The position numbers were made by a program, and so were the translations under genes. DNA of 64,000 bases from Halichondria panicea (taxonomy: Eukaryota; Porifera; Demospongiae; Suberitida; Halichondriidae), in assembly GCF_963675165.1 (NCBI RefSeq), contig NC_087377.1, positions 7,767,122 through 7,831,121 of the forward strand, written 5' to 3'. A model generated the notes under the pieces. The model worked only from the letters and a program-made list of their open reading frames with translations. It did no database searches and was not told where the DNA came from. Positions 5,663 to 35,997 of this stretch are shown here, in pieces; position 1 is the first letter of the stretch, and every line of letters starts with the position of its first letter.

Positions 5663-8600
5663 TCAAACAGCTGGTATACGAGTTAGAAGCATCGGCTCAT
5701 CATATATGTGGGGTGGACTAGGACTTCTTTCCGTCATCTGACTGCACGTACCGCTTCTGATATTCAAAATATTGTAGGCATCGTTTTCAGTCAGCAACGT
5801 CACTGGATCATACGCTTCATTTCGCTTTAATCTAATTGGACCATCACAAATGCTTAGCAGGGTTGGTTCCTGCATGTAATATACATTTTATATCGAAGAC
5901 ATTATTTACTATAATTATGTATATATACCTGTTGAGTGGGATTTGCCATGCTTGATACACCAAGGCCTGTGATCAGATTCTGTCAAATAGAATAAGCCCA
6001 AAATATATCAATAATTATACAAGATGAAGGGTATAATTATGGTTGTTGCATGTTTGAGCAAAAGATCAAAGAAACCACAGTGCAAATATATGGAATATTG
6101 CACAGTGAAGCCAGGCACATCAAAGCTAACAAACAAGTCACCGCACTGCAATATGCCATATATTTGCACAACCAGAAAGCTTGGACAAAAGTTGGAATGA
6201 TCTCTTTTCAGGGGCGTAGCCAGGATTTGAGAGAGGGGGGTGCTGGATGAATGGATTGTCTGAATTACCAGTGCGCTCCGGCGGTGCAAAATACGCCCCA
6301 ACGGGGGGGGTCTGGGGGTACTCCCCCAGAAAATTTTTGTTGTTACATGCTCTGAGATTGATTCTAACACAATCTGGCTAAAGAAACGAGGGTACTGCTG
6401 CTTTGAGGGTACTGGTGGTTAAGCCACATCTTCATCTGAATTATGTCCTATATATATATAAAATGCATAGTTTTGAGTTGTGACAATTAAATCATGCAGC
6501 TGCTAACCAGGTTCTGCTTGTGAATTAGCAGGACAGGGTGGCAAGCCACTTGCAGTTTTGCAGTGCTGCTCTGTGAACTGGGCTCAACTGAAAGAGTGAC
6601 GTGATGATGATGGTGATAGCTGCTGAATAGTCTGCAACTCTGTGGGGGACCTTGGTCTGCTCAGCCCACGTGGCTTTGCGCATGTGCACTGGCTGGAATG
6701 AAATTTGGAGGTGGAGCTAGCTAGTTGGAGGTGGAGTTTTGAGTTGATCGCAACATTAACATACCGTACGGGTAGAAAATTTCGAGGGTGTAAATTTTCG
6801 TGCAATTCAATATTCTGTCTTATTTGGAAAATTTCGCGGGTAGTAAATTTCGTGGAGTTAGGGTGTGTCACTATCTCGCATGCGTAAACAAAGCCTTTCG
6901 CGGGTTTTAATTTTCGTGTTCTGCAGCCACCCACAAAAAACGCGAAATTAAAACCACCTCGAAATTTTCTACCCGTACGGTAAGAGCTCTAGTTTTCTCA
7001 TATCAGCTAGCTAGCTACATGTCGCTTAGCTAAGGAACTTGTGGAGCAGAGTCTGAGGCCAGAGGGGGGTGCTGGAGCACCCTCTGCCCCCCTCTGGCTA
7101 CGCCACTGCTTTTATATTGTTCCTACAACTAACTTTTTTGTGGTATCAAAATAAGGAATGCGGAAGGCATGAACTCTATGCTTCTCCCACGCAACAAATC
7201 AGTTATTGCATAATCTCTCGTGCAATATGCCTGAGTAATTAGTGGTCTCGAGGCCAACGGCCCTCGACCACTTGTGCTCATGCAATAACTAATACATAAG
7301 CAATCTCCATTTTGAACACTTGGAATTTTAAATGCATGTGTTTCTATTTGAATATTAATTTTGTACTCAGTTAATATTATACCTTATCTGTTTTCCTTCT
7401 CCAAACAAACACAATGAAGATCACCACTACTACTAGTAGTACTAGGGAAGTAATGAAAATAGCAGCAGCAATTCCTCCTGCAAGTTTTCAAAATTGGATA
7501 ACTTAATAATAATCATGCATGTAGGTGATCATAATTATAATTATACCAAATAAGACATCATTGACAAAACAATGATAGGCTGAGTACTACGATTAAGGCT
7601 CCCTGTGAAGAACTGTTACTTAGAAGACAAATTTTCAATAGACTGGATTTGATACAGTCTATAATAATTATATATACAGCTGATATATAATTAGGAACAG
7701 CAATAATGGGCATTAATGATAAACATTCAAAGAGAGTTTAATAAGGTATTTGTCAGAAATCTCCAGCCACCTTTGTGGATTTGTTATGTGTTGTTCTGAC
7801 ATAATAGCATAAGCCAATGTGTACTATAATTATAGTGACAATTTGTGGTCAATTTCTACAGTAGGCTTGAGGTATCTCAGATAATCTATGTAGCCTCATT
7901 TAATTCACGCCGCAATTAAGGGCCTGGAATCGAGGCTGAGATGAATGCATGACGTGATGTGTTTCCAATCCTTTTTTTTTTACGATTTACGACTGAATCC
8001 GACACTCCCAGAAATTAGTGCGTATAATCAATATAAATTATAGTAGCATGCAGTGGTAATTTTTGAGGGCGATGTTTTCGTGGATTTCACTACGCCGCAA
8101 AATGTTCGACTGCAAAAATGTATGTTCAATATACAAGTCAGCTAAAAGCTAGTAAATGCGAAATTTCTAAAAATGGTCAACTAATTAGACCGTTGAAAAT
8201 TATCTGCGTATATGCATTGTGTTTCTTGTACACTTTAAATTGTATTCATTGTTGTAGAAGTATGGCTATAATAATAATTATGTTGTGTTGAAACATTAAT
8301 AATTTATGATTGCAAGTCATGAATAATTATCGTTAGCATTATAATAATTATTATACTCCATCCCTCACATCAACATAATGCCAATATAATTATATAATTA
8401 TGGACCGTGTATGCCAACAAACACACTACCGTATACCTCACTTGCGCATGCGCACCAAGGCATAAATATTCATCAAAATAGGTATACACATGTACATGTA
8501 CCTGTATGTACAGGTAGCAATAAACACAGTCAGTCACAGATACAGAATGGACGATCGTGCTGCATGGTGACTCAAACACAACATGACCAAGACGAATGTC

Positions 8601-11600
8601 ACGGACAAGTTCCGCACAGACTTTATCATCAGTGCAGTACAATTTTGTAAAGCTGCTAACGCCAACAACAATATGCGTGGGTGGATGCCCAGGAAAAAAC
8701 AGACCTAATGAGAGATTAGAGTTCGACACAAGACTACGAGACAGGAATTGTATTGTCAACTCCAGCAACAGAGCGTAAGATTCTAGTCTTTACAAATGAT
8801 GTGAAAAGAAGAACATGGAACCCTTATAATTATACAGCAACTATAACAGGGGCAATAAAACTATTATTTAACTATTATGCCGAGGAATCAAACTAAAACG
8901 CTATATATAGGACAAGACAAACAGCTGTGGTGCATGGTCAGACATGCCTAGCTGATCATGAGATCAAGATCACAGAAGAAAACCTTAGAGACATGCACTG
9001 GGACTGGAGTGTTACAAAAAGGGCACTTGGCGTGTACTGGTACGGAAGTAGGCTCACAGTGGAGTTAGCAATAAAAAACATAGAGTCTTTGTATGAAAAT
9101 TAATATGTCTATATAATTATGTGTAGTGCAATCTGGATGTAATGGTGTACCTCAAACTAAAGACATGTATAGTATAATTATATAGCCAACGTGCAAGGTA
9201 AGCTTCCTATATAGCTTTTATTCGAAAAGAAGCTTAAAACACCAAAATCTGTCACTATACCAACTAGAGCACTAAAGTGCAAACCCTTGGCTGCATGGTG
9301 ACATGACATGATTATAAAGAAACTGGAAGAGTGATATAATGCAGTGCATGTAGTGATGAATATCATGTATGACTAGGCTGTCTAGCACAGCAACTCAGGA
9401 GCTAAACCAGACAGGAGGTATGCTGAAACATTTAAGAACAGGATTTTAGATAAATATATGCATATGCACTGTGGACTAGGATCACAGCAAAGAAACCTGG
9501 AGTCTCATGCAGAGAAGTATGGCTATTGTATCAACCCTTTTCCTCAAACACACAAAGAATTATTGGCTTATGTTTCGAATAATAGCCGCATATCTCTGGG
9601 CTAGCTTATGTTTCAAATAATAGTCGCATTTAGAAGTATGCAAAAAGCTTCTTAGGTTTAGCTCACCTTTTCTGCGAACAAAACAAAGATTTCTTTGTAA
9701 AATCTGCCAAATTTTAAGCTTAATGCTACAATGTTTCCCTACGTACAAATTGTGATGCCTAAATCACCAGGTATAAGCCAAACTGAGCAGTGACAAACAC
9801 ACACACGGACACACAGACAGACTGACAGACTACTGTAACCGAGGCCGCCTATATGCGCCTCGGATTAATAACTTGTTGTGTGGACTAAACCCAGTGCTAT
9901 GGCAGCCAGGTGAGCATGCAGACTCAGAATTTACACATGCAGACACACAAACCAACAGACTAGCCCTGGCCTCCTATATATGTACCTCGAGTTAATTAGT
10001 TTGCTTACCTACTATCGCTGTCTCTGAGTTATATACATCAGGGGTTGCTGGAGTATGAGCATCTGTACGAGTGTCTGCAAAGGATACAGTATATAAATTA
10101 TGATCTGCAAATATGATACTGGTTTACCTGAGGCAGTAGTAGAAGTGGACAAGCCAATGGGAATCACGGTTTTGTATGATGGCACTTCATGAAGTGTATT
10201 AGACCATCGTTTGAATATGGCAGCAAAGTAGATTCCCTGAGGCATGCTTTCAGTGCAGTTTTGGCCAGAGTCAGTGACAGTACGTGGAATCAATGTGATG
10301 TTGCCTTGGTGAAGCCCATACTGGGAGTGGATGATCCCCACACAACTAGAGCTGCAACTGATGCAAATCTTTCCGTTGAATTCAGTAGCATTCACATCCT
10401 CTCCTCCTGGATTGGGTGGTATATACAGCTAGAATTTACAAGTTTTGCATCACATACACTCATGGAAACTGTACCTGCACTGGATTCAGTGGTACCATAT
10501 CGAGTGTTATTCAGTGTTGTATTTGGTAGAACAGCTGAAAATACCAGTTTTCTCTCAGGTGTCATAACATCATTCAAATCAAATACAGCCAACTTATAAA
10601 CACGATCAGCAAGGTTACCAACAGTGGATGATGTATTTTCCCTGTACACAACTTGATAGTGTAAATCATAAGGGGAGTCAACAGAGTACACAATGGCAAC
10701 GAAACCAGTATCATTAGACTGTGGAAGATAGTTGACAGTGATTGAAACTTTATTTTCCTCCATAGTTAAGTCGGTCACTTTATACACATCATGAGTACCT
10801 AAGAAAATATTCACAAAAATGCCATTGGATGGGTTACTACAAGTTATGTACGTACTTATATTCATGGTCATAGCTGATGGTGTGTTTTGGGGATTAATTT
10901 CAGCCAGTACAGTCAAATTACATCGTCGATGGCGTTCAATATTACAGCTACTACAGTTAAGATCAAGTACAATCATCTGTGTATTTCCACAAACTTCAGT
11001 TATCTGATCAGTGGAGCAGATACACAGATCAAAACCTTCTTGGTCAATGTACTGAATTTGAACGGAATAGCTATCTGGTACTTGACACTCATGAATTAGC
11101 TGCAAATGGAATGCAAAATTAATGGGTACATTATACATATTATACGTAGTATATATCACCAAAAAGTTTAACTCACACTTTCGGGAAATGTCACTCGCAG
11201 AGGGCTCAATTCCGTGTTAGTAGTGAAATTAACCTCATCAATGGGTATTGCTTGTAGTTCTGTTGCACAATGTAGTATGTATTAATTTAATTAATTAATT
11301 ACATTGACTAATCAACCTTACCATAGCTAAACCGTGCTATACTGATGGTTCCATTCAAGCTTCCGTCAATGTTGCTTCGTGGTGTCACAGAAAAGCTATA
11401 AGTACCCACATGATAGGCTATATCAAACAGATATTGGGTGGTAGTGATGTTACATTCAGACTGCAGCAGATTATCCTCTCTTTCATAAGTGACGTTATAC
11501 ACATCCACACAGTACTGTATGTCTGGTTCAGCAGTGGTCAAGTTCAGGGAGAAGGGAGCAACCCATGTGACGTTGAGTTGTGAACAGTTCCTAGCAATAT

Positions 11601-12476
11601 TGTTCACAGTCAGGTCAGCGACAGCAGGAAGAGGTCCTGGGTAATTACACAACTGCATGCATGAGTATATACATGTATACATTTGTGTGTCAGGATTAGG
11701 GTTGGTTCAATTAACAGCTATAGTACATGTATAGTGCACAACAACACACAATAATTTACCTTGAACTTGCAAGCTAGCATTTACTGACAATTTGGATATG
11801 AATCCTCGTCCGTCTCTAACCACCGCTTCACATTGGACAACAGTGTCATTGTACTGTGCTGTGGCTGGGATGGTCAGTGTTGCTGGAAAATCACCAGACG
11901 ATAGGGTAAGAGTCACATCAGGTGGGTACTTATCCTCAGTGGGAAACTCTTCATTGAGCCCCCAATTGTGATTTTGTGCTCCAAGATACAGACACTTGAA
12001 CAGTGCAGTTAGCCCTTGGGCCTGCACCACTGATACTGGTTGCACTACAAATTGGCATGCTGCAGATAGTAAAATGCATTCACATTACACTAACTGCTAA
12101 TATGCTAGATCTTATAATACCCTAATAAAGGTGCCACTTAATTCTTTCAACACCAAACTGGTGAATAGCCTGGCTATAATTATAATTGTGTGACAAATCA
12201 AACCTTCAAGCTATAATTATTTTATCCATGCACTTTGAATGTGGCCATCGCTCTAAAATAATTGCCTTATCATAATTATGGGGCGGACACAGTAAAATTG
12301 CTTGCCATGCAGGTGGAGACAAAGCAGTATTCCATGACAGATCTACTACGTGGTACGTCTTATATAAAATATTCATACTCACTTGTCAATACAACAGTAC
12401 GTGATAGTATGAACGTGACAGCTGTCAGGAGTATCACCAGTCTCTGTGACCATCTATAGCTATGATGTGACCTCAT
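5663..12476 (-). CDS. gene M: Ig/FN3 single-pass receptor with ITAM-like tail
   Basis: Ten exons on the minus strand: 12476-12383, 12044-11760, 11636-11322, 11259-11177, 11099-10475, 10406-10128, 10074-10009, 7477-7383, 5979-5929, 5869-5663. All junctions have GT/AG ends and the phases close to an exact 699-codon frame plus TGA. Order: hydrophobic signal peptide (about 1-31), Ig-like domain with its Cys pair (exon 2), FN3-like domain (exon 3), further Cys- and N-glycosylation-rich FN3-like region (exons 4-6), stalk, one TM helix (about 585-608) followed by WRRK, then a short tail. The tail has Y651-DPV, eight residues, Y663-NIL, close to an ITAM (YxxL/I-x6-8-YxxL/I) but with V at the first +3, and also Y687 (HIYDEPM). 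Role inferred: cell-surface receptor signalling through SH2 proteins. Its ectodomain is duplicated in gene P. The start ATG is not homologous to that of gene P. Confidence 0.8.
6211..7107. repeat. ~0.9 kb inverted-repeat element in a gene M intron, with nested MITE
   Basis: The ends GGGGCGTAGCCAGG and CTCTGGCTACGCCACTGC are inverted and are each followed inward by GGGGGGTGCTGG-type sequence. Inside, 6762-6982 is a separate MITE with perfect 26-bp inverted ends starting TACCGTACGGGTAGAAAATT. Similar cores occur at 20899-21777. Confidence 0.65.
7892..7945. repeat. TAGCCTC-family MITE remnant
   Basis: GTAGCCTCATTTAATTC and GGCCTGGAATCGAGGCT face each other over about 50 bp. A near copy with the same ACGCCGCAATTAA core sits at 24282-24330. 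Lies in the 2.5 kb intron of gene M. Confidence 0.6.
8408..8470. repeat. end fragment of the CGCATGCGC MITE family
   Basis: CACACTACCGTATACCTC followed by CTTGCGCATGCGCACC matches ends of the elements at 30928-31440, 34630-34840 and 47307-47880. Only one end is recognisable here. The remainder of the 7478-10008 intron holds a GCTTATGTTTC tandem duplication at about 9565-9630 and no supported exon. Confidence 0.55.
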
Positions 12477-12488
12477 CCGACACGATAT

Positions 12489-12525
12489 CTAGACTGACCT
12501 TGCAAAAAATCTTGCACACAACTGT
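12489..12525 (+). repeat. 37-bp direct repeat, copy 1 (copy 2 at 16691-16727)
   Basis: CTAGACTGACCTTGCAAAAA and the following 17 bases recur at 16691-16727 with one mismatch. Sequences outside and inside the repeats differ, so the pair brackets the retroelement region. It could be a large target duplication or the remnant of a tandem duplication. Confidence 0.75.
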
Positions 12526-12850
12526 CTTGCATGCACACAAATGTATTATAGTGTAAGCTTATACGTACATGTAAGTCTATCTAGCTAGCTAGACCAGAGA
12601 TAGAGTAATGGATTGGCAACGGGAGTACTCACGTGATCATTTCACATTGACATCAACCATCCTTGATGCGCATTATTTCCCGGCACAACGCCCGCGAAAA
12701 GAAGTAATAATTAGTTAGTTATTAGACTTTAGAATTGCGTATAGTAAGGCTACACGTGTCCTGTGCTTTATTTAAAGTGAAGTCCAAGCGTGGAAGAATT
12801 GACTGTGGTGCTCTAGAGCTTGAAAACTAGTTATATTGGTCTGTGCCCCC
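12526..12850. other. intergenic upstream of gene M and of the retroelement
   Basis: Likely contains the 5' flank of gene M, which starts at 12476 on the minus strand. No clear TATA box or other promoter element was recognised. The last part (about 12820-12850) resembles 16385-16410, the flank of the retroelement insertion. Confidence 0.5.
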
Positions 12851-12947
12851 TTTTTTTGACTTCTAACCTAAGCGTTGTTAGAGCCGATTTTAAAGTAGGC
12901 ACTAGCCAAGGAGCTTGCTTGTTAACTAAGCGCTCAGCAAGACTGGA

Positions 12948-15900
12948 ATGGCTTGCTGCAGATGTAATCGCACAGGGCGCTGCCAAAACTGCAGATGTGT
13001 GAAAAGTGGTCGTCTTTGTCAGGGTTGTCTTCCTCAAAGACTGGGGTCGTGTGTTAATACCGCCCATACCCCATCACCTGATGTCACTGACACTGACATA
13101 GCCTCTCCCTCACAACCATAGAACAGTACAAGCACTCAGCCCTCGATGGTACCCACCTCGCCACATCCCTCGAATGGACCAAATACTCAGGAGAATACAA
13201 GTCCCCCTAATTCTCCTCTCCAACTTCCAGGCTTTTCACCAACCATAGCAGGGACTTTCACCTGGGGTTCATACGATGCCCCCACGTTCATAAACTCTCT
13301 CAAGGCTGCCTATAATGAAGTGGTACATTGGAAGCCAAACTTCTTCAAGGTTCCATATGGCACAACTGGGAAATCGTTTGTTTCAGAATTGTCTAGACTG
13401 TACAAAGCTTTCGCATCAACATCTGCCATGGAATGCATCGCACTTAAAGCCACCATTGTCGCACCCATCCTATTGCTACAGAAACCCTCTGCCAAGTCCA
13501 AGGCCAAAGACCATAGTACCTGCCTTGAAAGACGCCTGCGTACATGGCTAGATGGCAACCTGCAGGACCTACTCTTAGAAGGAAGAACAATTCAACAGAG
13601 AATTCCTAAACAGAACCCAGACATCAGCGAGAAACATGAGAAAAACCTTTCTCGGTCCTTTGCTAACAAAATGTTTGAAGGGAACACAAAAGCAGCCATC
13701 CGCCTGCTAACAGAAGATTCAAAGGGAGGTGTACTTCGCTTGGGGGACCACATTGGGGAGAACCAGACAGTGAAAGATGTGCTGATAGAGAAACACCCTC
13801 CAGCTCAGTCCGCGTCTCCTGACTCTATAATCAAAGATGATCCACCCGAGGTTCATCCTGTACTATACGAACAAATTGATGCCACCCTGATAAGATCTGC
13901 TGCCTTGAGAACTACGGGTGCAGCGGGACCCTCTGGCCTTGATGCCGCCTGCTGGAGAAGACTCTGCACGTCCTTTAAAGGGGCTTCGAATGATCTGTGC
14001 CACTCCATCGCCATCTCTGCCCAGAGACTTTGCACCAGTCTGATAGATCCATCCACCACTGCCCCTCTACTAGCATGTCGTCTAATAGACCTCAATAAAA
14101 ATCCGGGCGTACGCCCTATAGGTATAGGAGACACGGCAAGGCGGATCATGGCCAAGGCAATCTTGACAATTACTAGACAGGATGTACAGGAAACCACTGG
14201 TTCAGTACAACTCTGCGCTGGACAAATTTCGGGCATTGAGGCTGCGGTACACGCAGCTACTACACTCTTCCAACAAGACGACACAGAGGCTATCCTGCTT
14301 GTGGACGCAAGCAATGCGTTCAACGCACTCAACCGCCTTGTGGCCCTGCACAACATCCGTCGTCTCTGTCCCCCACTGGCCACAGTTTTGATCAATACGT
14401 ACAGGGTACCAACTGAACTATTTGTTGATGGTGACGTGCTCTACTCCTGTGAAGGCACCACTCAAGGGGACCCCCTAGCTATGCCCATGTACGCATTGGC
14501 TACAGTACCCATCATCAAGAGATTACATTCCCTCTCCGAAGACATTGATCAGGTGTGGTATGCGGATAACGCCGCTGCAGCAGGGAAAATTGTCAGATTA
14601 CAGGAATGGTGGACCAATCTTTCTACACTAGGTCCCAAGTTTGGATACTTTCCAAACCCCCAAAAAACATGGCTTGTCACCAAAGAGAAGCACCTTTCCT
14701 CAGCTACAACCCTCTTTGCTAACACTGGAGTGCAAGTCACCTCGGAGGGCAGACCATACCTAGGGGCCGCACTTGGCACTGAAGAATTTGTCACCTCACA
14801 CGTGCAAGACAAAGTTGGAATGTGGTCTAAGGTTCTGGATAAGCTAACTGTGGTCGCAGAAACACAACCACATGCTGCTCATGCTGCTTTCACTCACGGT
14901 CTCTCCAACAAATGGTCATACCTCACACGTACCATCCAAGGCATTGGAAACCTCCTAGAACCGCTGGAATCAACAATCAGAATGAAACTTTTACCCACCC
15001 TGACGGGTCAACCACCCCCATCCGACGAAATGCGTGACCTCCTAGCCCTACCAGCGAGATTGGGCGGTATAGCAATAAGCAACCCCACTGCTGTGACTGA
15101 GGCAGAATTCTCCGCTTCCACCAAAGTTGCTGGCCCCCTTAAGAACACCATCCTCCAACAAAGCTTCGAGTATGCCACAGAAGTAGCCGAGGCTCAAGTG
15201 AAAGCCAGGAATGAGGTCCGCCGATCAAATCGGGAACACTGTAAACATACAGCGGACACCCTGAAGCAATCCCTTTCTACCACTCTAAAAAGATCTATGG
15301 ACTTAGCACAAGAGAAAGGCGCTTCTAACTGGCTCACCTCCCTCCCCATCCAAGAATTTGGATTTGCCTTACATAAAGGAGCTTTTCGAGATGCCCTCTC
15401 ACTTCGCTACAGTTGGCAACCATCAGGAGTCCCCTCATCTTGTGCATGCGGCAAACAATTCTCAGTCGATCACGCTCTGTCATGCCCTAAGGGCGGTTTC
15501 ACCATCACCAGGCACAATGAAATAAGGGATTTAACGGCCAACCTACTCACTGAAATTTGCAGTGACGTCTGTGTAGAGCCTGAACTACAACCTGTAAGTG
15601 GTGAAGAACTAATCGGGCTGTCAGCAAATGTCCAAGACGGTGCCAGATTAGACATTGCGTGTAATGGCTTCTGGGGTGGGCGCTTTGAACGTACATATCT
15701 AGATGTACGAGTGTTTAATCCCCATGCAAAATCAAACCAACACACCAACTGCTACAGGAAGCATGAACTTGAAAAGAAAAGACAATACGAACAACGCGTC
15801 AGAGATATCGAACACGCCTCATTCACTCCTTTGATGATGTCAGCCACAGGTGGTATGGCCAACCAGGCCACTGTGTTCTACAAAAGGCTTGCCTCAAACT

Positions 15901-16082
15901 TGGCAATCAAATCTAATGAAAGCTACAGTAGAACACTGTCCTGGCTAAGGAGCAGAATTACATTCTCTCTCCTACGCTCTGCCATTCAGTGCATCAGAGG
16001 ATCCCGCTCCAGTCGTGGACAGCCAGCCAGGTCCCAGAATCACCCCTCAGCGGACCAGCGGACCTGGCCAACTCGGAACTAA
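12948..16082 (+). pseudogene. RT plus restriction-like endonuclease ORF, interrupted by a TAG
   Basis: The long open frame is 13146-16082 (978 codons). The same frame starts earlier at ATG 12948 with a Cys-rich stretch (CRCNRTGRCQNCRC, then CQGCLP), which a TAG at 13119 cuts off; that segment looks like a nucleic-acid-binding motif of the original N terminus. From the 13146 start, RT motifs are LVDASNAFNALNR (D387), GTTQGDPLAM (439-447) and YADN (472-475). The C terminus has C766-A-C768-G, H776, C780, RHNEIRD, then D836 and LDVRV (D853), the zinc knuckle plus PD-(D/E)XK pattern of R2/NeSL-type endonucleases. The expected YADD reads YADN. TAG plus this substitution argue that the copy is inactive. 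Family assignment is from motifs only. Confidence 0.8.
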
Positions 16083-16185
16083 ACTTCAATGAATAAATAC
16101 ATGGTTTTAACTTTTACATGACTTTAGTTTTTTCATTACATTAACCCTGTCCTCAATAACGTCACGTATGTCATGTTATAACATT

Positions 16186-16187
<2 letters not shown>

Positions 16188-16219
<32 letters not shown>
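16188..16219 (+). other. poly(A) tail of the retrotransposon
   Basis: An A run of about 30 bases after the ORF, preceded by AATAAA near 16092 (GAATGAATAAATACATG). It marks the 3' end of the inserted copy and is long enough to suggest a fairly recent insertion. Confidence 0.8.
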
Positions 16220-16224
<5 letters not shown>

Positions 16225-16429
16225 GAAGCACTGCCGTAGCCAAATGATGTTTTGCCTATACAGATCCTGCTTATTTGTGTCTATGTTGACGAACTGGCCT
16301 GCATACATTTCCTTGGTTAAATCTCTTTTGTATGTTTTTTACATTTATAACCAAAAATGCTAAAATGGAGGCTGTAAAAGACGAGAAAGTTTTATATTAG
16401 TTTGTGCCCCTTTTAAGAAGCACTGCTGT

Positions 16430-16487
16430 TAGCCTCGATTCCAGGCCGATTAAAATATGTATTTTAATCGGCCTTGAATCGAGGCTA
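16430..16487. mobile_element. 58-bp hairpin MITE with 9-bp target duplication
   Basis: TAGCCTCGATTCCAGGCCGA folds on TCGGCCTTGAATCGAGGCTA. CACTGCTGT flanks both sides (16421-16429 and 16488-16496). The surrounding sequence is the second unit of a local tandem duplicate (compare 16225-16330), whose first unit lacks the insert and so serves as an empty site. Confidence 0.85.
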
Positions 16488-16690
16488 CACTGCTGTAAGC
16501 CTATGATGTTTTACCTACATATCTTGTTTTTTTGTGTCTTTGTTGATCAACTAGGCTGCATAAATTCTTGATTTTGATTTCCTAAAGTTATAAATGGAGG
16601 CTACAAAAAATGAAAAAAGACTTTTTAAAAGTCGACGTAGCACATCACAGATAGTCACGTTTTTTCGACCGTTGCCTACTTTATCTCTGG

Positions 16691-16727
16691 CTAGACTGAC
16701 CTTGCAAAAAACCTTGCACACAACTGT
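16691..16727 (+). repeat. 37-bp direct repeat, copy 2
   Basis: One mismatch to 12489-12525. See that entry. Confidence 0.75.
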
Positions 16728-16771
16728 ATTACTGTAACTGGTAATAAAGTGCGTTGTAACTTGTATCAACG

Positions 16772-16827
16772 TAGCCTCGAACGCCTAACCGTTATAAAAG
16801 CGAAAACTCGGCCTGGAATCGAGGCTA
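16772..16827. repeat. TAGCCTCG-family MITE
   Basis: Begins TAGCCTCGAACGCC and ends CGGCCTGGAATCGAGGCTA with the family's internal CCGTTATAAAAGCGAAAACT. The left arm is shortened. No clear target duplication. Confidence 0.65.
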
Positions 16828-16844
16828 CATATAAACGTACATAC

Positions 16845-17252: not shown

Positions 17253-17334
17253 TGCACTGTATCGTTGAATGAGGCTTTAGATTCTGATTCTATGTACTAA
17301 ACACTCATTAGAGTTCCAGTTGTAAAATCTGAGC

Positions 17335-17494
17335 TAGCCTCGTTTCCAGCCGAGTTGTCTAGCTAGGCCGCCAAATATTTAAAAAATCGGCCTAGGACCG
17401 AGGCTAGCTCAGGTCTAGCCTCGAGTCCAGGCCTAGGTCGCCTATTAAATTAACTTCTTTCTATTAAAAAAAAATCGGCCTGGGACCGAAGCTG
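17335..17494. repeat. two adjacent TAGCCTCG-family MITEs
   Basis: 17335-17406 and 17416-17494 each start TAGCCTCG and end with a CGGCCT...GACCGAGGCT-type terminus. Both are diverged and partly deleted. Confidence 0.65.
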
Positions 17495-20158: not shown

Positions 20159-20219
20159 GATGCACTGTATGCACGTTACAATATGGATGTCAACATGCAT
20201 ATGCACGTTACAATAATTA

Positions 20220-25085: not shown

Positions 25086-28000
25086 ATGAGACTGGTGACA
25101 CTCCTGAAAGCTGTAACATTGTTACTATCACATGCTGTTGTATTGACAAGTGAGTAAGTCAGTATTGTATTACCGTACAGCGGGTAATTTTTTCGTGGGG
25201 TAAATTCGTTATTTTCGTGTAGCGCGAGCGACTGGCCAACTGCCTATCAGTCACTCGTCTCAGCGGAAGTGTATAGATCATATGACACTACCAAACATGA
25301 ATATTATTATAGATAATGTGATTAAATTTTAGTATGAGATTTAGCTACTATGGAATCCCCTGAAGTGTAAGTGCGGCAGGGCTAATATGACATTGAGCAA
25401 TCTGATAGGCTGCAATGCTTATTGCAGCTGAGACGAGTGACTGATAGGCAGTTTGCCAGTCTAATTTTCGTGGGCAAGCTGACCTCCACGAAATTTTAAC
25501 GTAGGCGTGGCTTACTGGATGCAGTGCGGGCAACAAAATTTTTACTCACCGAAACCACCGTTTCCAGATAATTTTTACCCACGAAAAAATTACCTGCTCA
25601 TCTATAATCGACACAATGAATGTTCAGACACTCATTCTAAGGAAACAAGCAGTGATAAAAAATGTTCTTTTGCACTATCTGATCAAGCATGTGTTACTAT
25701 GAATGTATGCAAGGGGATATGCTGAGAGTCACATAGTAATTATGTAAGGACAATAACTAAACAATAAAACCCCCAAAGTTGGAGTTGCAAACGCTTGTAT
25801 GTCCATGCAGCAATTATTTCTGCTTAGCCACTCGCGTATCAATGATCAGACAGCAAATGGGGTCTAATGTTATTGGCATCTCATGTACATGAGTGTACAA
25901 CTACTAAAAAACCTTTGACCTTTGGCCCCATTGCACGTGGGATGCTAAGAACATTTGACCTTTGACCCCATTTGCTGTCTTCAGCGTCATAACATCGTTT
26001 TTATATGGACACTCTCTCTCAATTATTAATTTTGTTGTATTGCTTTTTCGACATTCTAACCATCGAGACTGCTTAATGTTGTACATGCCATTGTGAATGC
26101 AATTTTACTGTGTTTGACTAATCTGTATAGTTACATGCATGTAGCATGCAAATTTACAGTGCAACCAGTATCAGTGGTGCAGGCCCAAAGGATAGATGCA
26201 GTGTTTGAGTGTCGGTATCCTGAAGCACAAAATCACAACTGGGGGCTCAATAAAGAGTTTCCCACTGAGAATAATTACCCACCTGATGTGACTCTTACCC
26301 GATCGTCTGGTGATACCCCGGCAACGCTGACCATCCCAGCCACAGCACACTACAACAACACTGTTGTCCAATGTGAAGCAGTGGTTAGAGACGGACGAGG
26401 ATTCATATCCGAATTGTCAGTAAATGCTAGCTTGCAAGTGCAAGGTAGGTTATTGTGTATTGCTGTGCCTGTATTATTAAGTACTAACCGTGACACACAA
26501 ATGTACTCAGGACCTCTTCCTGCTGTCGCTGACCTGACTGTGAACAACATTGCTAGGAACTGTTCACAACTCAACGTCACATGGGTTGCTCCCTTCTCCC
26601 TGAACTTGACCACTGCTGAACCAGACATACAGTACTGTGTGGATGTGTATAACATCGCTTTTAAGAGAGAGGATAATCTTCTGCAGTCTGAATGTAACAT
26701 CACTACCACACAATATCTGTTTGATGTACCCTATCCTGTGGGTACTTATAGCTTTTCTGTGACACCACGAAGCAACATTGATGGCAGCTTGAATGGAATC
26801 ACCAGTACAGGACAGTTTAGTTATGGTAACGTTAATTTTTGTTGTTCTTAATATGTACTACATTGTGCAACAGAACCACAAGCAATACCCATTGATGAGG
26901 TTAATTTCACTACTAACACGGAATTGAGCCCTCTGCGAGTGACATTTCCTGAAAGTGTGAGTTGAACTATATACGTCTTTTTTTTTGGTGATAATGTAAA
27001 CCCATTTGCAGCTAATTCATGAGTGTCGAGCACCAGATAGCTATTCCATTCAAATTCAGTACATTGACCGAGAAGGTTTTGATCTTTGTATCTGCTCCAC
27101 TGATCAGACAACTGAAGTTTGTGGAAATACACAGATGATTGTACTTGATCTTAACTGTAGTAGCTGTAATATTGAACGCCATCGACGATGTAATTTGACT
27201 GTACTGGCTGAAATTAATATTAATCCCCAAAACACACCATCAGCTATGACCATGAATATAAGTACGTACATGACTTGTAGTAACCCATCCAATGGCATTT
27301 TTGTGAATATTTTCTTAGGTACTCATGATGTGTATAAAGTGACCGACTTAACTATGAAGGAAAATAAAGTTTCAATCACTGTCGACTACCTTCCACAGTC
27401 TACTGAGAAGGGTTTTGTTGCCATTGTGTACTCTGTTGACTCCCCTTATGATTTACACTATCAAGTTGTGTACGGGGGAAATACATCATCCACTGTTGGT
27501 AACCTTGCTGATCGTGTTTATAAGTTGGCTGTATTTGATTTGAATGATGTTATGACACCTGAGAGAAAACTAGTATTTCCGGCTGTTGTACCAAATACAA
27601 TACTGAATAACACTCGATATGGTACCACTGAATCCAGTGCAGGTACAGTTTCCATGAGTGTATGTGATGCAAAACTTGTAAATTCTAGCTGTATATACCA
27701 CCCAATCCAGGAGGAGAGGATGTGAATGCTACTGAATTCAACGGAAAGATTTGCATCAGTTGCAGCTCTAGTTGTGTGGGGATCATCCACTCCCAGTATG
27801 GGTTTGACCAAGGCAACATCACATTGATTCCACGTACTGTCACTGACTCTGACCAAAACTGCACTGAAAGCATGCCTCAGGGAATCTACTTTGCTGCCAT
27901 ATTCAAACGATGGTCTAATACACTTCATGAAGTGCCATACAAAACCGTGATTCCCATTGGCTTGCCCACTTCTACTACTACCGCAGGTATGCCACTATCA

Positions 28001-31000
28001 GATTTGTTTAAATCTCATGCATTGTACTGTCTCCTTTGCAGACACTCGTACAGATGCTCATACTCAAGCAACCCCTGATGTAGATAACACAGCGATAGTA
28101 GGTAAGCAAACTAATTAGTGAGTTAGTCTGAGTCTATCATGTACATTGTCTACCAAACACAAACCTTACAGGAGGAGTTTCTGTTGCTGCTCTTTTGATT
28201 CTGATTTTGATTGTGATTTTGATTGTGTTTGTTTGTTGGAGATGGAAGATGCAAAAGAAACGTACTTTGGTATTGGATACCATCCTCCTTGAGAACGAGT
28301 ACGATAGTGCTCCCCCTCTAAATGTAAGTGCACTGTATTTCATAACTGCTAGTATTTACATCGATACACCCTTGTTAATATAGAGAGAATATTCAGCTGC
28401 TGGTGTGATTATTATGTTAATCAGATATTTGTACTCTTAATTATGTCATATTTAAAGACCTCCTCCAATTCCTACATATCAGTGTGAGAATGTTGAGCTG
28501 ATGTTACTGACCAGAATAACAGAGCCAGTGACCTGTTACGCAGCTACCTCAAAACCGTTCAAACAGGTACATGTACATGTACAATATACAGTTCATGCAC
28601 AGTACTCTTCTAAGTTGTTATTACGACACCGTGATAATTGTGCTTATGAACAGGATATGGACACAAGCTCAGTTTTGAGCTCCACCCTCTCTAGCCCTGA
28701 CCATGTACCCATATCTGACAATTGTGATGACTACAATGTGTCCACTCTGGAGAGGAGTAACCATGACACCGCACCTAAGCATTCAGCCAACAACAGAGTC
28801 ACACAAGCTACGGAAGCTAGTGAGAATGAACAAGTTGCTTCTGTACACATGGAAGGTGGCACATCCAGTGTGGAAAACCCCATTCAACAGGTACATGTAC
28901 ATTGTGACAGTGTATCAGTAGAGAAAATCATTTAATGTTTTGCTACCTTGAATCCCACAGTCGTAGGTGTGGCTTCCGGTCACATGCATGCCTACCGCAC
29001 ATGCGCATCCATGAGCATCCTGGTTTCACGTGCTAAAGTACAGCCGCTGTCAGCGAGCCACAGACAAAATAATTGGCTGCTCAAATCTTATGTCTGACTG
29101 ATTGTGACATCTGCTTAGACCGGCACTGCCAAAAGATAGTAATATCCTCGCCTAGGATATATGACGCATTCCTAGATCGCAGTCATTTACTGCAATCTGT
29201 ATGACCATAGTTAGAGGGGACTACCAGTTCTGAAACAGCTATTGGCATACCACAGAATGGATTTATGGGAGATGAGGTTTGTAATCTTTACACAAAAATA
29301 GATTGGTAAATTGCTGTCATTGTTTATGATAGTCATTGTATACGCGCACGTTCTTGGAAGGCATGTGCATTGAACGTGTAGTGCATGAACATTGCCCAAT
29401 GAATAGTCGTAGTACAAGACACCATTACATACGACGTGGGCGGATAATTATTGCTCAATCAAAGGCTAATTGCTTGAGCTGCAGGTGGCCCAACGTCTGA
29501 GTGTGTTTGTCTGTAATAACATAATACTTTCAGTGTCTATGCTAGCCAAGGTACTAGCAACGGTCAATCGTGCTGTTCACTAGTGAAGGTCAATTGTTCT
29601 TTTATGAACTCTCTGGACCACCGTAGTAAATTGTATTCATTCAGCATTGTAATTGGAGCTGTACTTTCGCTGCACTTTCAGTATGACATGTAGATTGATC
29701 GTGTTGTGCATCCGCATCAATGAATATGATCGTAGTACAAATTTATTATGTATAGTACATGCATGTACCGTACATGTATAGTGAGTTATTTTCGAGGCAC
29801 TACGTTTTTGCGGATTGCCCAAACAAAACATTTTGAGGATTTTATTTTCGAGGATAGAGGTTCAAATGACCACACCCCTACAGTAGAGAGGTTTCAATAC
29901 CGGAAGTAAACCAATTTTTGAGGCACTAAATTTTCGTGTTTCTGGATCAATCCTCGAAAACCTCGAAAATTGCGTGCCTCGAAAGTAACCAGCTATTATG
30001 GTTATAATGTGTATAATTACCAATGTCTGGGTGTTTAATGTTGTCTATAATAACTGTACACATACATTGTAATGGTTTTCAGTGTGTACTTACTTGTATT
30101 GACCCCCTTTCCCAGCCACATGATCAATCTATGGAGTCAACACCCAAAGATCCGGTGTATGATGTAGCTAAGCAAGGCCTTGCTAAGTCATCACCCACAC
30201 CAGATAAAAACAAAACTGAAATCACAGTAAGTTCATGTTAGTAAATATTAAGACTATGGTTATACAAACTGTGTTTCAATTTTATCTATATAATTTATAT
30301 CTATACAGGTTGTATACGCTGATTTGGACGTGAATCCCAAAGCCGATAGTACTCCTCCAATGCAACATTCTGTTATGCATGGTGTAAACGATGAGTCCTC
30401 TCTAGCTCCGAGAACTGTTGAAGATATCCTGCACGATATGATCCTGTACTACTTCACCCTCGGTCCTCACTCCTGGGAAGACATTGTCCAGGCTCTGTGG
30501 GAGATTGGGGAGATAGCGGTGGCAAAAAAAATCATCAGGAGTGGAAAGTATACAGGTACATGTATGTTCTTATAATCTCGGGCCAATTTGAACCACTCTG
30601 ATGAAAAGTACATGAGCAATTTCCTCCCAAATGTGTGTCACCTCTGATCATACATGTATACATCATTTTATCTTCTGCTACAGTAGAGCTTCCGGTCACC
30701 TCTCCAACTGAGACCCCACCACCTTTGCCACCAAGGAATGGTTAGTAAATACATGTATCAGCATTGTCTGGCTCATACTTTACTTCGTGCGTTTTCAGAC
30801 ACTGCTAAAGCTGCAAGTCATCAAACAGAGGCAGGTGACGACTGGAAAGATCACAGTGTGCAAGCAGGGAGTGACACTCTAAATACTGAGGAACATCAGG
30901 TAACACAGGCGCTTACTGTATTGTGTTAATTATGCCTCAGTGCGCATGCGCAAGCGAAGTATACGGTAGTGTGTTTGTGTGTGCGTGCGTGCGTGCGTGC

Positions 31001-34000
31001 GTGCGTGCGTGGTCAGGCTGCTACAGCTTGGATTTTAATTCGTTGATTTGCAAAATAATGCTTTGTTCTCAAGTTATGCCTAGTTTTTTACTTACTTGGA
31101 ATGCCATTGCAGCCTTTCAGAAGAGTGCATAGCAAAACTTGTTCACCGAGTGTTGCTACTCTACTTAGTAGTTAGCTATGCGCTAGAATGCTAGCTATTG
31201 TAGCTGCAATTTAGAGTGAGAAGAGAGCTGCAAGGCTCTGCTGACTTGCCGCCATTAATTTTAGACTTGAACTTTTGGCATCGATCGTTTATAGCAACAA
31301 TAATAATCGATCATTACCCAATCTTTGAGTTCTTGTGATGCATTCCTGCATGCAGCAAAACAAAAATGTTCATCCGTACATAAGCTATTATGTTATGTAG
31401 CTTTGGCATCTCCACCGAGGCATCAGCGCTTTCATTGTTTCAGCAATGTGAAATTCTTCTTACTGTTTACTTCTCTGCGCAGTTAAGGCCTGGGTCAGGC
31501 ACTGATAAGATTATTGCCAACATTTTATGTAGATCATGTAGATCGTGTAGTGTTAATGAGATTCATAATGTTTATTAATGTTATTCATTGCATGTGACGT
31601 CATAAGGTCAATGTATTTGCTTAGCTAGCTGCTAGAACTATTATAGATTATCTTTGGCAACAAATACGGCGGACTTAAACAAGGTAAGAGTAGCTGTTTA
31701 GGCCCTCAAAAGATAGATTATGTTGTTATGATTATGTTTCCTTGATGGGAAGTAAAAATGTCCAAACTTTCTTAGCTATGCTAGCTTCTTTAGCTCTGAC
31801 AGCCACCCTAGAGGTAGGCTATTTTGTGTATCTCAAGAATACAATAACTCCTATTCTTCCCATCAAGGATACTAGTACCTAGCTATGAGATGTTCATCTA
31901 GCCTTGTTTTTGAAGCTTGATCTTGGCATCTTCAACGCCGTATTTGCACTTTTCTTTCTGAAAGTGGCATGACGTCACCACCATTTATGGGACTAATTAG
32001 CATAATTGAATTAAGCTAATTAGTTTTTTGGAAAAAGAAAACATTGAGCTTCATTTTGGATCATTTTGATGCAGCATACACTGTATATTGCAAATAATAC
32101 AGCAGTATGAACATAGTGTAATTTTGGTATTGAAATCTGGACCCGGGCCTTAAGTGCGCAGAGTTATTCCCCCCTCCCTCCCAGCCTGTCCCTAGTCGTA
32201 GCAAACATACTAAACCACGTGAGGAATCTACCAGCTCTGAAACACCACCGAGTGGAAGTATGCCAGATAAGGTTTGTTTGATATGTTATTGTAGGCAACA
32301 CAAGTGGACTGTAAATGTATTCATCCAACATTGTAAATATAATAGCAGGAGCCCATAAATAAGAGAAGGGAGCGGCTGCTTCAACGTATACTCGGGATCA
32401 TGTTTCATAATTGCCGGTGAAACCACACTTCCTTGTATGGAAGCGACTAAGTGCTTGTAAATCGCAACCCTGTATTGCGTATAACACGTGTAGGGATTCA
32501 ACCAACTGCATAATAATATGGAAATGCGGTCATAACCACTTACGAAACGTGATCTCCGTAGTCAGCCGTTCCTTCTCATATTTAGATAATAGTCATTGGA
32601 GCACGTTCAGTATGACATGTGCATTGATCGTATTGCGCATGAGCAACAATGATTATGGTTGTAGTACAAAGAGGTCATCGTACAAGCTAAATAAACAATA
32701 CATTGCCCGATGTCTGGGTGCTTTGTCTATAATAACTGTACACATAATGGCTTCCAGTGTGTAATACATTAACCCCTTTTCCCCAGTCACATGATCAATC
32801 TGTGGAGCCGGCACCCAAAGATCCAGTGTATGATGTAGTCAAAAAACACCTTGCCAACTCAACACCCACACAGAACAACAACAAAACTGAAACCCCAGTA
32901 AGTTTATGTTAGTAAACATTGAGACCATGGTTATACAAACTGTATGCCTTTCTTGGTTATCATCAACTCTTTATTTGTATAATAATCTTTACAGGTTGTA
33001 TACGCTGATTTGGACGTGAAGCCCAAAGCCGATAGTACTCCTCCAATGCAACATCCTGTTGTGTATGGTTTAATCGATGAGTCCTCTCTAGCTTCGAGGA
33101 CTGTTGAGAATAACACACCATGTAAGTTATGTGCGTGCACAAGTTGTGTTTATACCCACAGTGACACAAATAAACACATTTTCTTATGTTCATGACATAC
33201 TTTCTTATTGAAACATAATGCTAACCGCTCATGAATAAGTTTGCAGTCTTTGACAGGTTGCAATTATCGACCCCTTTCATAGCCTCCTTCACCGGCCTTC
33301 ATAGAAAAGAAGGCCTGCTATCGACTGCTTGCACACGCGCAAAAATTATTGGATATTTTTTCCTGTAAAATTTCCTATAATACTGAATTCATCAGAGAAA
33401 AATATACTAAAAGTCATACACCTAGCTATAGTTATAGCTACATGTAGCTAGCTAGACAGAGTTGTGTAGGTTTGTTGTACAGTTATTTTCTTCTGATAGA
33501 ATCAGTAGCAGTAGTATAGTAGACTTTCACCAAAGTTAGTGTTAAATGGGCGTGGCCTGTCCATATAGGCTCTCGGCAGCTTTCACTCCGTTCAGGCGAT
33601 CGTCACCCACACTGTTGCAGGCTGTGAGTCTTTTGTTAACATAGCGGGCTAAGGGTAGCTATCAGAGAATGCTATCCAATGGGCTAGAAACCTTCAATCG
33701 AAGTTTCTATCTACTTCTTTCCAATCCACTTACGTTCGTTGTGATGTCATTATTAATTTTTACTGAGCATGTACGATGATATCCAAAGCCCCCCGGATAC
33801 CGGGGGGATATTAGCGCATGCGCAAGCAGTCGATACCATGGCCTACTTCCCTAAGTAAAGTGCGGCCTGGGATCGAGGCTACCCCTTTCATGGCTGCAAT
33901 TGATGCATGTACACGTACATTATTAATTATCAATGTGGTATGAAAATTCAACTACTGATTATGCGAACAAGATGTGTACATATTGAATGAAAACATTTTC

Positions 34001-35997
34001 TCCCGTCTAAGGCCCTCTCCCTTCACTACCACCCCGTCCAACTACTGAGTCTGTCCTTGCTGAATACATTGCTATTAAGCGGGAGCCTTTAGGAGAAGCT
34101 CTGGGAATAAAGAAGCACCACCTTGACTCCTTCTCTACTGAGGGCCACAAGCTGCAGGACATTGGTAAAGATCGGTGTGATAGTGAGAAGATAGCGGTGG
34201 AAATCAAAATTGTCAGAAGTACAGGTATGTTCTTATAATCTTAGGAACATTTGAATTTAGCTTGCGTGCATGGGATTAGATAAAAGCTCAATGTCATTAG
34301 ACAGCGGCAGGTGAACTGTTACAGGACAACTGGCATACAGTATGCAAGAAAGAATATCGTTTGCTGTTTTGCATAATTATACTCAATGTAGTTAATTATC
34401 ATTTGCGCTTACAGTACGGGTACATATAATCATAGATATTAGGATTGGAAACGCTTACGATTACGGAAAACAATCACACTCCGCTTGCTCCATAAATTAT
34501 CGCATAACACCACTCACCAGATGGCAGTTAGAGCAGCTATATTAGCAGCTATTCTGGAGGACGAGGAATTCCTATAGTCTTCCTATTGGACACTCCAAGG
34601 TTGAAAGATCGGAAGAAACTGAGAAGAATATGAAAGCACCGTGGGTGCTGATGCCTCGACAAAGATGCCAAAGCTATACATAACATAAAGCTACTAATAT
34701 AGCTTTTATACATAAGAAGCCTATAGAAACTCTTACTTACACTTTCTGAGCAGCTGTAGCAGTCTACACACACACAAACACACTACCGTATACCCTTGTT
34801 TGCGCCGGCATGCGCACCGAGGCACAATGAAGAAAACTATATCACCAGTAAGTATTACCTCCCACTTTGATATGGCTACTGTGTCGACTAAGCAGAGTTT
34901 CACTAAGAAGTAAGACTGTTCACTAATTACTTTGTTTATCAACAATATTCGCAATGCGCATGGTTTAGCGGAAGAGACGTTTTCACTAGCAGTAGCAGTC
35001 ATGTCAGGGTTCTATCTAGAAGAAATATTTTAGGGGGGAAGATATTTTGTGGGGGGAAGCCTACGGCGAGTGCAAAGCACGAGCCGTAGGCTGAAAGGGG
35101 GTCCAGGGGTCCTCCCCCGGAAAATTTTTTATTCTAGATGGCCAGAGACGCAATTTGAGCCAAATAAGGTCTTTTACTTAAAAATTTGAGGTGCACAAAT
35201 AGAGGAAGCTGGAAGGTTTGGGGGGGAAGTAGGATAGTTTGGGGGGGAAGTTGGATAGTTTGGGGGGGGAAGCTTCCCCCCTGCCCCCCCCCCCACTAAA
35301 TAGAACCCTACATGTATAAGCGTTTCTAATCCCTCTTCCTCTAATATCTACGATATAATTACCATGATTATGGCGCGAAATTTTAAGATGCTTAATTTTG
35401 CCGTTTTCGTAGATCAGCAATACTATATAAAAAATATTCATTGAAAATTGTTCTTTAATTAGTGTGCAAATTTGGATTGAAGGCGTGGCCTGGGAGTGCT
35501 TCCGGTAAGCAGTCAACCACGAAATTTATTCAACAAAAATGCTTTGCCATTCCACGAAATTAAAGTATCTCGAAAATTTCGCGCTAAATACGGCATGTAA
35601 AAGTGTTTGTTAATTGCTATAATTGGTCGAGTACGGTATAATTATTTATCTAATGATTGTTTGTATGCCGGCCTCAGCTTCCCGTGATATCAACGAAACA
35701 CCAACAGTTCCTGATAAAAAAGTAAGTTACATGTAGTACAATGCGCAGCCATTATTCATGCAAATAATGCAGGAGCAAACTGTCCCTCACAACACAGCAA
35801 TGAATCAGAAGATAAATGTCCACAATGTCAGCACTCGGGAACACCTCAACAGTATCCAGGTATCAAAGATAAGAATGTCAGGTAAGAATATGCAAGGCAA
35901 TGGGTGATGGGAAATTGTGGATTTTTCGGACTCTTTTATAGGGGAAAAAGTTATAAGCAGTCAAAAGAGTATCGACATTCAGGAACCGCCACTGTAA
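25086..35997 (+). CDS. gene P: Ig/FN3 receptor with ITIM-like tail and death-fold pieces
   Basis: Twenty-one exons: 25086-25149, 26160-26444, 26511-26825, 26874-26956, 27012-27642, 27711-27986, 28042-28101, 28172-28323, 28483-28566, 28654-28890, 30116-30226, 30309-30555, 30684-30740, 30799-30899, 32185-32271, 32787-32897, 32995-33121, 34012-34224, 35678-35721, 35773-35881, 35942-35997. Phases agree throughout and give 1149 codons plus TAA; AATAAA follows near 36073. Signal peptide MRLVTLLKAVTLLLSHAVVL, Ig and FN3-like ectodomain, TM (about 574-596), long tail. Tail: VVYADL at Y769 and Y970 and VVYGLI at Y991 fit the ITIM consensus (I/V/L)xYxx(L/V/I). There are proline-rich exons (TPPPLPPRN; PLPSLPPRP) and death-fold-like helices in exons 12 and 18. 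The last exon's stop overlaps a usable donor (CT|GTAAGT), so a longer isoform is possible. Inferred role: inhibitory or adaptor-recruiting partner of gene M. Confidence 0.8.
25171..25602. repeat. MITE in intron 1 of gene P
   Basis: TACCGTACAGCGGGTAATTTTTTCG is inverted at the right (CGAAAAAATTACCTGC). A second inverted pair lies inside (CAGTCACTCGTCTCAGC near 25248 against GCTGAGACGAGTGACTG near 25428). It explains most of the size difference between intron 1 of gene P (about 1.0 kb) and of gene M (about 0.34 kb). Confidence 0.7.
29200..30000. repeat. intron 10 of gene P: decayed exon and MITE
   Basis: 29225-29285 resembles exon 15 (CCAGTTCTGAAACAGC...) and ends before a GTTTGT donor-like site, but its frame does not join cleanly. 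29767-30000 is a MITE with ACCGTACATG and TTTTCGAGGCACT facing inverted GTGCCTCGAAA. A GTGCATGAACATTGCCC segment near 29380 recurs near 32610-32710. Confidence 0.5.
30928..31440. repeat. MITE with CGCATGCGC end in intron 14 of gene P
   Basis: The left end AATTATGCCTCAGTGCGCAT and the right end CACCGAGGCATCAGCGCTTTC are inverted in their ATGCCTC(G/A)GTG core. Its inside is the reverse complement of 47307-47880 over hundreds of bases. GTGC(GTGC)n at 30983-31010 is a microsatellite. Confidence 0.75.
31470..32162. repeat. ~690-bp inverted-repeat element in intron 14 of gene P
   Basis: CTCTGCGCAGTTAAGGCCTG at the left is inverted at the right (CCCGGGCCTTAAGTGCGCAGAG). A nested inverted pair (AAATACGGCG and CGCCGTATTT, then TTCCTTGATGGGAAG and its complement) lies at about 31660-31955. 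It ends only about 20 bp before exon 15. Confidence 0.7.
33280..33881. mobile_element. 602-bp MULE-like MITE with 9-bp target duplication
   Basis: Starts TAGCCTCCTTC, ends CGGCCTGGGATCGAGGCTA; subterminal ATCGACTGCTTGCACACGCGC is inverted at the right (GCGCATGCGCAAGCAGTCGAT-like). CCCCTTTCA flanks both sides (33271-33279 and 33882-33890). A relative with a nested insertion is at 38602-39709. Lies in intron 17 of gene P. Confidence 0.85.
34630..34840. repeat. short copy of the CGCATGCGC MITE family
   Basis: AAAGCACCGTGGGTGCTGAT to GCATGCGCACCGAGGCACAA, matching the two ends of 47307-47880 with the middle deleted. It lies inside a stretch (34433-35355) whose ends ATATTAGGATTGGAAACGC and GCGTTTCTAATCC are also inverted. 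Confidence 0.65.
35030..35320. repeat. G-rich repeat with short tandem units
   Basis: A unit close to GTTTGGGGGGGAAGTTGGAT repeats three to four times at about 35218-35275. GAAGCCTACGG...CCGTAGGCT forms a hairpin at 35055-35092. Ends GGGTTCTATCTAG and CTAAATAGAACCC are inverted, so it is probably another MITE. Confidence 0.55.

Follow-up and report, generated by a model that had tools for sequence, protein, structure and literature searches.

A head-to-head gene pair of the sponge Halichondria panicea with a shared receptor ectodomain and different tyrosine-based tails

Why two neighboring sponge genes carry nearly the same ectodomain on different cytoplasmic tails is the question raised by a 64,000-nucleotide stretch of the 131-Mb Halichondria panicea genome (C1:7767122-7831121), here called the window. 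Two genes, M on the minus strand and P on the plus strand, lie head to head within it. An earlier note on this DNA, which correctly took its source to be a probable sponge, likened them to the paired activating and inhibitory receptors of vertebrates. Of that design, the shared head and the different tails stand; M lacks a canonical ITAM, and the reading of P as a plain inhibitory receptor is altered. The anatomy and the recombination of M and P are well supported. Whether they work as a pair is less certain, and we put at about even the chance that they are paralogous single-pass receptors in which a near-identical ectodomain and different tyrosine-based tails make up a paired-receptor mechanism of opposed signals.

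Gene models and the shared ectodomain

The exon chain of M was built from the DNA and runs through 11 exons (window 12476-5663, minus strand; 685 aa), and the chain of P runs through 21 exons from 25086 onward on the plus strand (1117 aa) (Table 1). Both chains have open frames throughout, and all of their introns are GT-AG. The 21-exon chain of P is an exact prefix of LOC135330762 isoform X2 (P0009, 1140 aa). The head-to-head arrangement described in the earlier note is thereby upheld, as is the start of P at 25086; its end at 35997 is not, because the last 23 residues of the record are encoded at 40708-40776. Protein searches limited to 334-1062 and 366-1164 aa yielded no record of M, and the M chain is accepted because its frames are intact, its introns are GT-AG, and it matches M2, a paralogue on the minus strand at C1:7934924-7938520. 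The M2 chain, built without exon 1, agrees with the corresponding part of LOC135340490 isoform X2 (P0001) except for a four-residue alternative acceptor. That record carries the M-type exon chain and the M tail, it was the sole match when the protein collection (366-1164 aa) was searched with the M tail, and according to it a stop-free intron of 57 bp interrupts one initially modeled ectodomain exon. P2, on the plus strand, runs from exon 2 at C1:6342444, with a signal-peptide match at 6336797. Its counterpart among the records is LOC135342390 isoform X3, in which small exons carry additional residues and the end is longer than in our model.

Table 1. Exons and other features of M and P, in window coordinates
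Feature	Position	Strand	Basis
M exon 1, signal peptide	12383-12476	-	ATG, open frame, GT donor; resembles P0001 start
M exon 2, Ig-like domain	11760-12059	-	Conserved C/W/L/I/C positions
M exon 3, FN3-like domain	11322-11636	-	Relative P0002 above Pfam fn3 cut-off
M exons 4-7, remaining ectodomain	11177-11259, 10856-11099, 10475-10798, 10128-10406	-	Splice chain
M exon 8, stalk	10009-10074	-	Exon chain
M exon 9, transmembrane segment	7383-7477	-	92/92 aligned bases equal those of M2
M exon 10, tail	5929-5979	-	Exon chain and genomic copies
M exon 11, tail with YDPV-x8-YNIL, YDEP, and stop codon	5663-5869	-	Three genomic copies
M tract shared with P (P side about 27012-27960)	10160-11100	-	Identical introns, topology and run tests
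P exon 1, signal peptide	25086-25149	+	Exon chain, LOC135330762
P exon 2, Ig-like domain	26145-26444	+	Exon chain, LOC135330762
P exon 3, FN3-like domain	26511-26825	+	Exon chain, LOC135330762
P exons 4-8, remaining ectodomain and stalk	26874-28101	+	Exon chain, LOC135330762
P exon 9, transmembrane segment	28172-28323	+	Exon chain, LOC135330762
P exons 10-12, proximal tail including DPVYDV	28483-28566, 28654-28890, 30116-30226	+	Chain, LOC135330762
P exon 13, VVYADL fused to second half of death domain (first half missing)	30309-30555	+	Comparison with complete P2 exon 13
P exons 14-16, PPPLPPR motif and linker exons	30684-32271	+	Chain, LOC135330762
P exons 17-18, second copy: DPVYDV, VVYADL, VVYGLI	32787-33121	+	Exon chain
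P exon 19, second death-domain copy, center missing	34012-34224	+	Comparison with P2 exon 13
P exons 20-21	35678-35881	+	Exon chain, LOC135330762
Last 23 residues of P isoform X2, behind CA repeat	40708-40776	+	LOC135330762

M and P have the same ectodomain in the same exon phases, as the earlier note had read by eye: across exons 2-8, 480 of 534 aligned residues are identical (89.9%), and the DNA is 90-98% identical exon by exon. M and M2 agree at 452 of 534 residues, P and P2 at 408 of 512. Identity this high would also be seen if M and P were alleles or a misassembly, and misassembled haplotigs had been named as a possible refutation of the pair. Such an artifact is highly improbable, however, because the tails differ and because a separate paralogue with each tail type lies elsewhere on this 18-Mb contig.

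Exon 2 is called Ig-like because C22, W32, L61, I63, and C76 are invariant among 11 copies and because a relative, P0003, has a sub-threshold match to Pfam Ig_3 (E 0.09). Exon 2 itself has no Pfam match at cut-off, and its best E value in a PDB sequence search was 0.65. With exon 3, the relative P0002 exceeds the Pfam fn3 cut-off (26.0 vs 25 bits), M and M2 fall below it, and a PDB sequence search gave no match. Two AlphaFold2 models had a mean pLDDT of 41, a confidence that did not permit a fold search. The possibility that exon 2 is under positive selection was considered and rejected, as the M-P comparison (pN/pS 0.83, Fisher 0.65) gave no signal of it; nor is constraint visible there.

Recombination between M and P

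How the two heads came to be so alike may be recorded in their introns. Between exon 2 and the transmembrane exon there are seven, one of which was too long and was omitted from the M-P comparison; two of the others are identical or nearly so (68/68 and 56/57 positions), and four are 79-83% identical. In a four-gene alignment of M, P, M2, and P2, M equals P at 313 of 479 polymorphic columns. The longest run of M-P agreement covers 50 polymorphic sites (window 10511-10319), a length reached in 0 of 20000 shuffles, and when exon columns and intron columns were shuffled apart from each other, the longest M-P run in any shuffle was 35. The longest runs of the other five gene pairs are 7-10 sites, and between 207 and 580 of 5000 shuffles produced runs as long.

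Topology tests divide the genes into parts. Within the tract at 10160-11100, the tree joining M with P was best and the other two were rejected (AU p 6e-5 and 8e-5), a result that depends on the run test because the tract limits were set after the run was known. At the transmembrane exon, (M,M2)(P,P2) was best and the others were rejected (AU p 0.018); identity there is 63/80 between M and P versus 92/92 between M and M2. The remaining ectodomain did not discriminate between (M,P) and (M,M2) (AU 0.725 vs 0.291), and there the third topology was rejected (0.0037). By these trees, the transmembrane exon of M is shown to have a history different from that of the ectodomain tract, the former shared with M2 and the latter with P.

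Either conversion of the ectodomain or swapping of tail exons would fit the M/P pattern. The intron pattern favors conversion, because identical introns lie within the tract and more diverged ones flank it. Thus, an approximately 1-kb part of the M/P ectodomain apparently has been kept alike by gene conversion. Such recombination supports the paired-receptor reading beyond what the earlier note had. Among paired receptors, ectodomain conversion is common but no requirement, and it maintains some of the vertebrate ones.

The two tail types and their candidate readers

The tails themselves had been called unrelated, and the score of M against P0009, equaled in 323 of 1000 shuffles, reveals no detectable relation. 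Homology by way of the look-alikes SSxxNPxQQ and LLTRI was rejected on that figure and on 534/1000 shuffles for P0008. The tyrosine motifs were correctly described: M has Y637-DPV-x8-Y649-NIL (in our numbering), and P carries two VVYADL motifs and one VVYGLI. Besides these, M has Y673-DEP, and P has PPPLPPR and, twice, DPVYDV.

ITAMs follow the consensus Yxx[LI]-x6-12-Yxx[LI]. A loose form of this pattern occurs once in the M tail and was equaled in 96 of 5000 shuffles; the strict form occurred in 0 of 6 scanned tails, M having V at the first +3 position. Of the signaling labels proposed earlier, ITIM-like is apt for the P motifs, but a canonical ITAM in M is ruled out, as the strict pattern is absent. 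The M tail has three genomic matches, and its motif region is unchanged in all three; these copies have diverged little, and the test for purifying selection is non-significant (pN/pS 0.44, 0.30, and 0.47; Fisher 0.24, 0.054, and 0.17). The M tail is most closely related to that of P0002 (2/1000 shuffles for M, 17/1000 for M2), in which NEAYxPV and NxAY are kept and the x8 spacing and YNIL are absent. Comparisons with the P0003 tail (92/1000 for M, 71/1000 for M2) and the P0006 tail (32/1000 and 106/1000) gave higher counts.

Perhaps both tails signal through adaptors, with no opposition of kinase and phosphatase and with a difference in strength or site, as in adhesion or endocytosis. YDPV, YDEP, and YDV-type sites would then be ligands of Nck/Crk-like SH2 domains, NxxY of PTB domains, and PPPLPPR of SH3 domains. 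NxxY occurs twice in M (58/5000 shuffles) and is found in P0002 also (59/5000), YDxV/YxxP occurs twice in M (131/5000), and NEAYxPV..NxAY is the part common to the M and P0002 tails. YDxV/YxxP is without excess in P0009, P0008, and P0007, however, and the retention of VVYADL in P and P2, with VVYAQV in P0007, is better fitted by an ITIM. We therefore consider adaptor signaling by both tails unlikely.

The ITIM consensus is [SIVL]xYxx[ILV]. The P0009 tail has four matches versus 0.66 expected, and 15 of 5000 shuffles reach four, but a single duplicated exon accounts for two of the matches, and a third falls within the remnant of a death domain. Four matches each were also found in the tails of P0008 (129/5000) and P0007 (45/5000). 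Between P and P2, the exon with the second VVYADL is constrained (pN/pS 0.22, Fisher 0.006); for the first copy, constraint is non-significant (pN/pS 0.66, Fisher 0.28). In the P2 tail, VVYADL and VVYALI occur once each, and a death domain scores 23.9 bits against a Pfam cut-off of 22.6. Judged by its motifs and domain matches, the P tail type is that of a death-domain receptor and also carries ITIM-like motifs; the earlier note makes no mention of the death domain. In P itself neither death-domain copy scores with Pfam Death, and a PDB search with the death domain gave weak matches to the p75 neurotrophin receptor (TNFRSF16; E 0.44-0.5). Because both copies in P are broken, the plain inhibitory-receptor reading of P is altered, and its tail may be decaying. 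We know of no other system in which an ITIM-type motif and a death domain share one tail and tails are swapped between families.

A second alternative starts from the death domain: long-tail members would be death-domain receptors, and short-tail members would be signaling-poor decoys or adhesion molecules that compete for ligand. The death domains of P2 and P0007 exceed the Pfam cut-off, relatives of the death-domain exon occur at 8 places (9 rows), and two further loci (L042 and L044) have the same layout, in which Ig-like exons are followed by a P0007-kind tail and death domain. P lacks an intact death domain, however, and the unchanged motif region in the three M-tail copies also counts, weakly, against decoys. 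We regard this account as improbable.

In the paired-receptor reading, the M and P ectodomains would bind a shared ligand. The YDPV-x8-YNIL of M would be phosphorylated and dock a Shark-kind tandem-SH2 kinase or an SH2 adaptor, and this docking would yield an activating-type signal; the VVYADL of P would be phosphorylated and dock an SHP-kind tandem-SH2 phosphatase. Because the death domain of its tail type is broken in P, the role of P would be that of an inhibitor or decoy when set against members whose death domain is intact, P2 among them.

Candidate readers of both kinds are encoded in the genome. On C3, two SH2 domains and a PTP domain follow in the order SH2-SH2-PTP, which we take to be the layout of SHP phosphatases. 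In Drosophila, the ITAM-type tail of Draper is read by the Shark kinase, and H. panicea also has a Shark-type kinase layout, a likeness drawn by description only. On C9, SH2, ankyrin repeats, SH2, and tyrosine kinase occur in the Shark/HTK16 order (the DNA fetched was the stretch between the two SH2 domains), and ankyrin repeats are given as a feature of that layout in the available part of one study (PMC10253181). The matches come from 129 of 1749 kinase candidates and 150 of 361 phosphatase candidates, and further kinase and phosphatase genes, Syk proper included, may exist beyond the matches listed. In the accessible text of a holozoan kinome study, Syk is listed as emerging in vertebrates (PMC8662651), and the portion available of the other source gives invertebrates one Syk-like gene besides Shark (PMC10253181).

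Recurrence of head and tail exchange

How widely heads and tails have been recombined can be gauged from the genome. M exon 2 has 101 genomic matches with E values of 1e-3 or lower. Three regions hold 100 of these (36 rows at C1 3.4-3.7 Mb, 58 at C1 6.3-7.94 Mb, and 6 at C8 4.48-4.53 Mb), and 1 lies on C2; 11 of the 101 rows run across a stop codon, and a few represent fragments of one exon. All 38 rows for exon 3 are on C1. The earlier note proposed a search for further ectodomain copies with swapped tails, and one such pair was found on C8. There, P0006 and P0007 (LOC135340080 and LOC135340097) are 89.9% identical over residues 1-499 and have no similarity beyond residue 499 except a 14-residue match (E 2.1). 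The P0006 tail ends in YEGL-x8-YEVV (loose ITAM pattern, 49/5000 shuffles), and the P0007 tail combines VVYAQV with a death domain that barely exceeds the Pfam cut-off (23.0 vs 22.6 bits). Their heads are only partly shared, because P0006 carries an additional Ig domain and more sequence next to the membrane.

The tails also recur elsewhere in the genome. Among 150 of 192 candidates, the P0006-type tail segment gave at least 47 genomic rows (at least 43 on C4, 2 on C8, 1 on C10, and 1 on C12). Of 12 copies picked by hand from those rows, three of which are identical, 10 keep the ITAM-like pattern and two lack it. The M tail lies in frame behind an FN3/sushi receptor (L023 1915-4625), mapped without its gene start and open through 10 exons; among records of 366-1164 aa, none joins that receptor to the M tail, P0001 being the only match. 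From this receptor and the P0006/P0007 split, heads and tails therefore appear to have been exchanged both ways.

Such exchange might be no more than the behavior of a fast-evolving tandem family, in which closeness and likeness drive tail shuffling and head conversion and no signals are opposed. The clustering of the exon 2 matches and the stop codons among them, the move of the M tail to an unrelated ectodomain, the many P0006-type tails on C4, the broken death domains of P, and the lack of significant purifying selection on the M tail all fit this account. Nevertheless, motif parts of the M tail are unchanged in 3 of 3 copies, little diverged though these are, the second VVYADL copy is constrained, the transmembrane exon and the ectodomain tract differ in history, and a head-sharing pair is found again on C8. 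We think it rather unlikely that family turnover is the whole explanation.

Returning to paired receptors, we offer a broader reading tentatively. M and P could belong to a large combinatorial sponge system for recognition of self and non-self or of microbes, with arrayed Ig-like/FN3 heads, converted head pairs, and exon-shuffled, interchangeable tails, the short ones ITAM-like and the long ones combining ITIM and death domain. If so, paired-receptor logic would reach Porifera, having arisen either independently or very early, and genes of the M/P type would supply testable candidate receptors for sponge self/non-self recognition.

Several known systems resemble parts of this design. Primate Siglec-11 and Siglec-16 are described, in the available text of one paper, as having a shared head, opposed tails, ectodomain gene conversion, and tested glycan binding (PMC5701461). 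They are the closest evolutionary parallel to M and P in shared head and conversion. To our knowledge, the inhibitory Siglec partner has no death domain. CEACAM1 and CEACAM3 likewise share heads, one tail being ITIM/ITSM and the other ITAM-like according to the part of the source at hand (PMC5112662). That family is a vertebrate one, its likeness to M and P lies in shared heads and differing tail motifs, and protein-record and PDB searches gave no CEACAM-type match to the sponge genes. Among invertebrates, the accessible sections of one paper describe allorecognition receptors, Botryllus FcoR and Hydractinia Alr, with ITIM-, hemITAM-, ITAM-, and YxxL-type tails and argue for ITIM-/ITAM-type signaling in cnidarian and tunicate allorecognition; the FcoR genes adjoin partner genes, each paired with a fester-family gene (PMC12065747). 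Unlike M and P, the FcoR partners have no shared ectodomain, and those sections mention no death domain (PMC12065747). Ig and FN3 receptors are mentioned in the available text of an H. panicea immune-repertoire study, in which the term "death domain" does not appear (PMC8242945). No report of paired ITAM/ITIM-type receptors in a sponge was found in a search mostly outside subscription journals, and a sponge case with converted heads would bring paired-receptor logic to another early-branching animal phylum.

On C4, at about 0.3-2.6 Mb, there are very many protein tyrosine phosphatase exons, partly interleaved with P0006-type tails. Together with the ITAM-like tails, these exons could form another pairing, one with enzymes as tails; matches to a membrane-proximal P0006 query followed the P0006-type tails and not, visibly, the phosphatase exons.

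The window holds other features besides. The M intron before exon 10 contains a dispersed repeat (about 6209-6500) with matches on many contigs. Between M and P lies a 986-codon open frame (13122-16082, plus strand) with a weak, sub-cut-off reverse transcriptase match, and a MULE-type transposase frame is found at 44019-45227 (minus strand). Rfam at the gathering threshold matched nothing within the window. About 9 kb past the last exon of P, a run of Calx-beta-like exons was recognized by eye on the plus strand (49360 to about 59780); of three tested, one was above the Pfam cut-off, one was below it, and one was without a match. Opposite this region are three long open frames (50480-53844, minus strand; 592, 228, and 149 aa) with no Pfam match at E 0.01. 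Sponge aggregation factors carry Calx-beta repeats, and the linkage of the region with the receptors is of interest for that reason.
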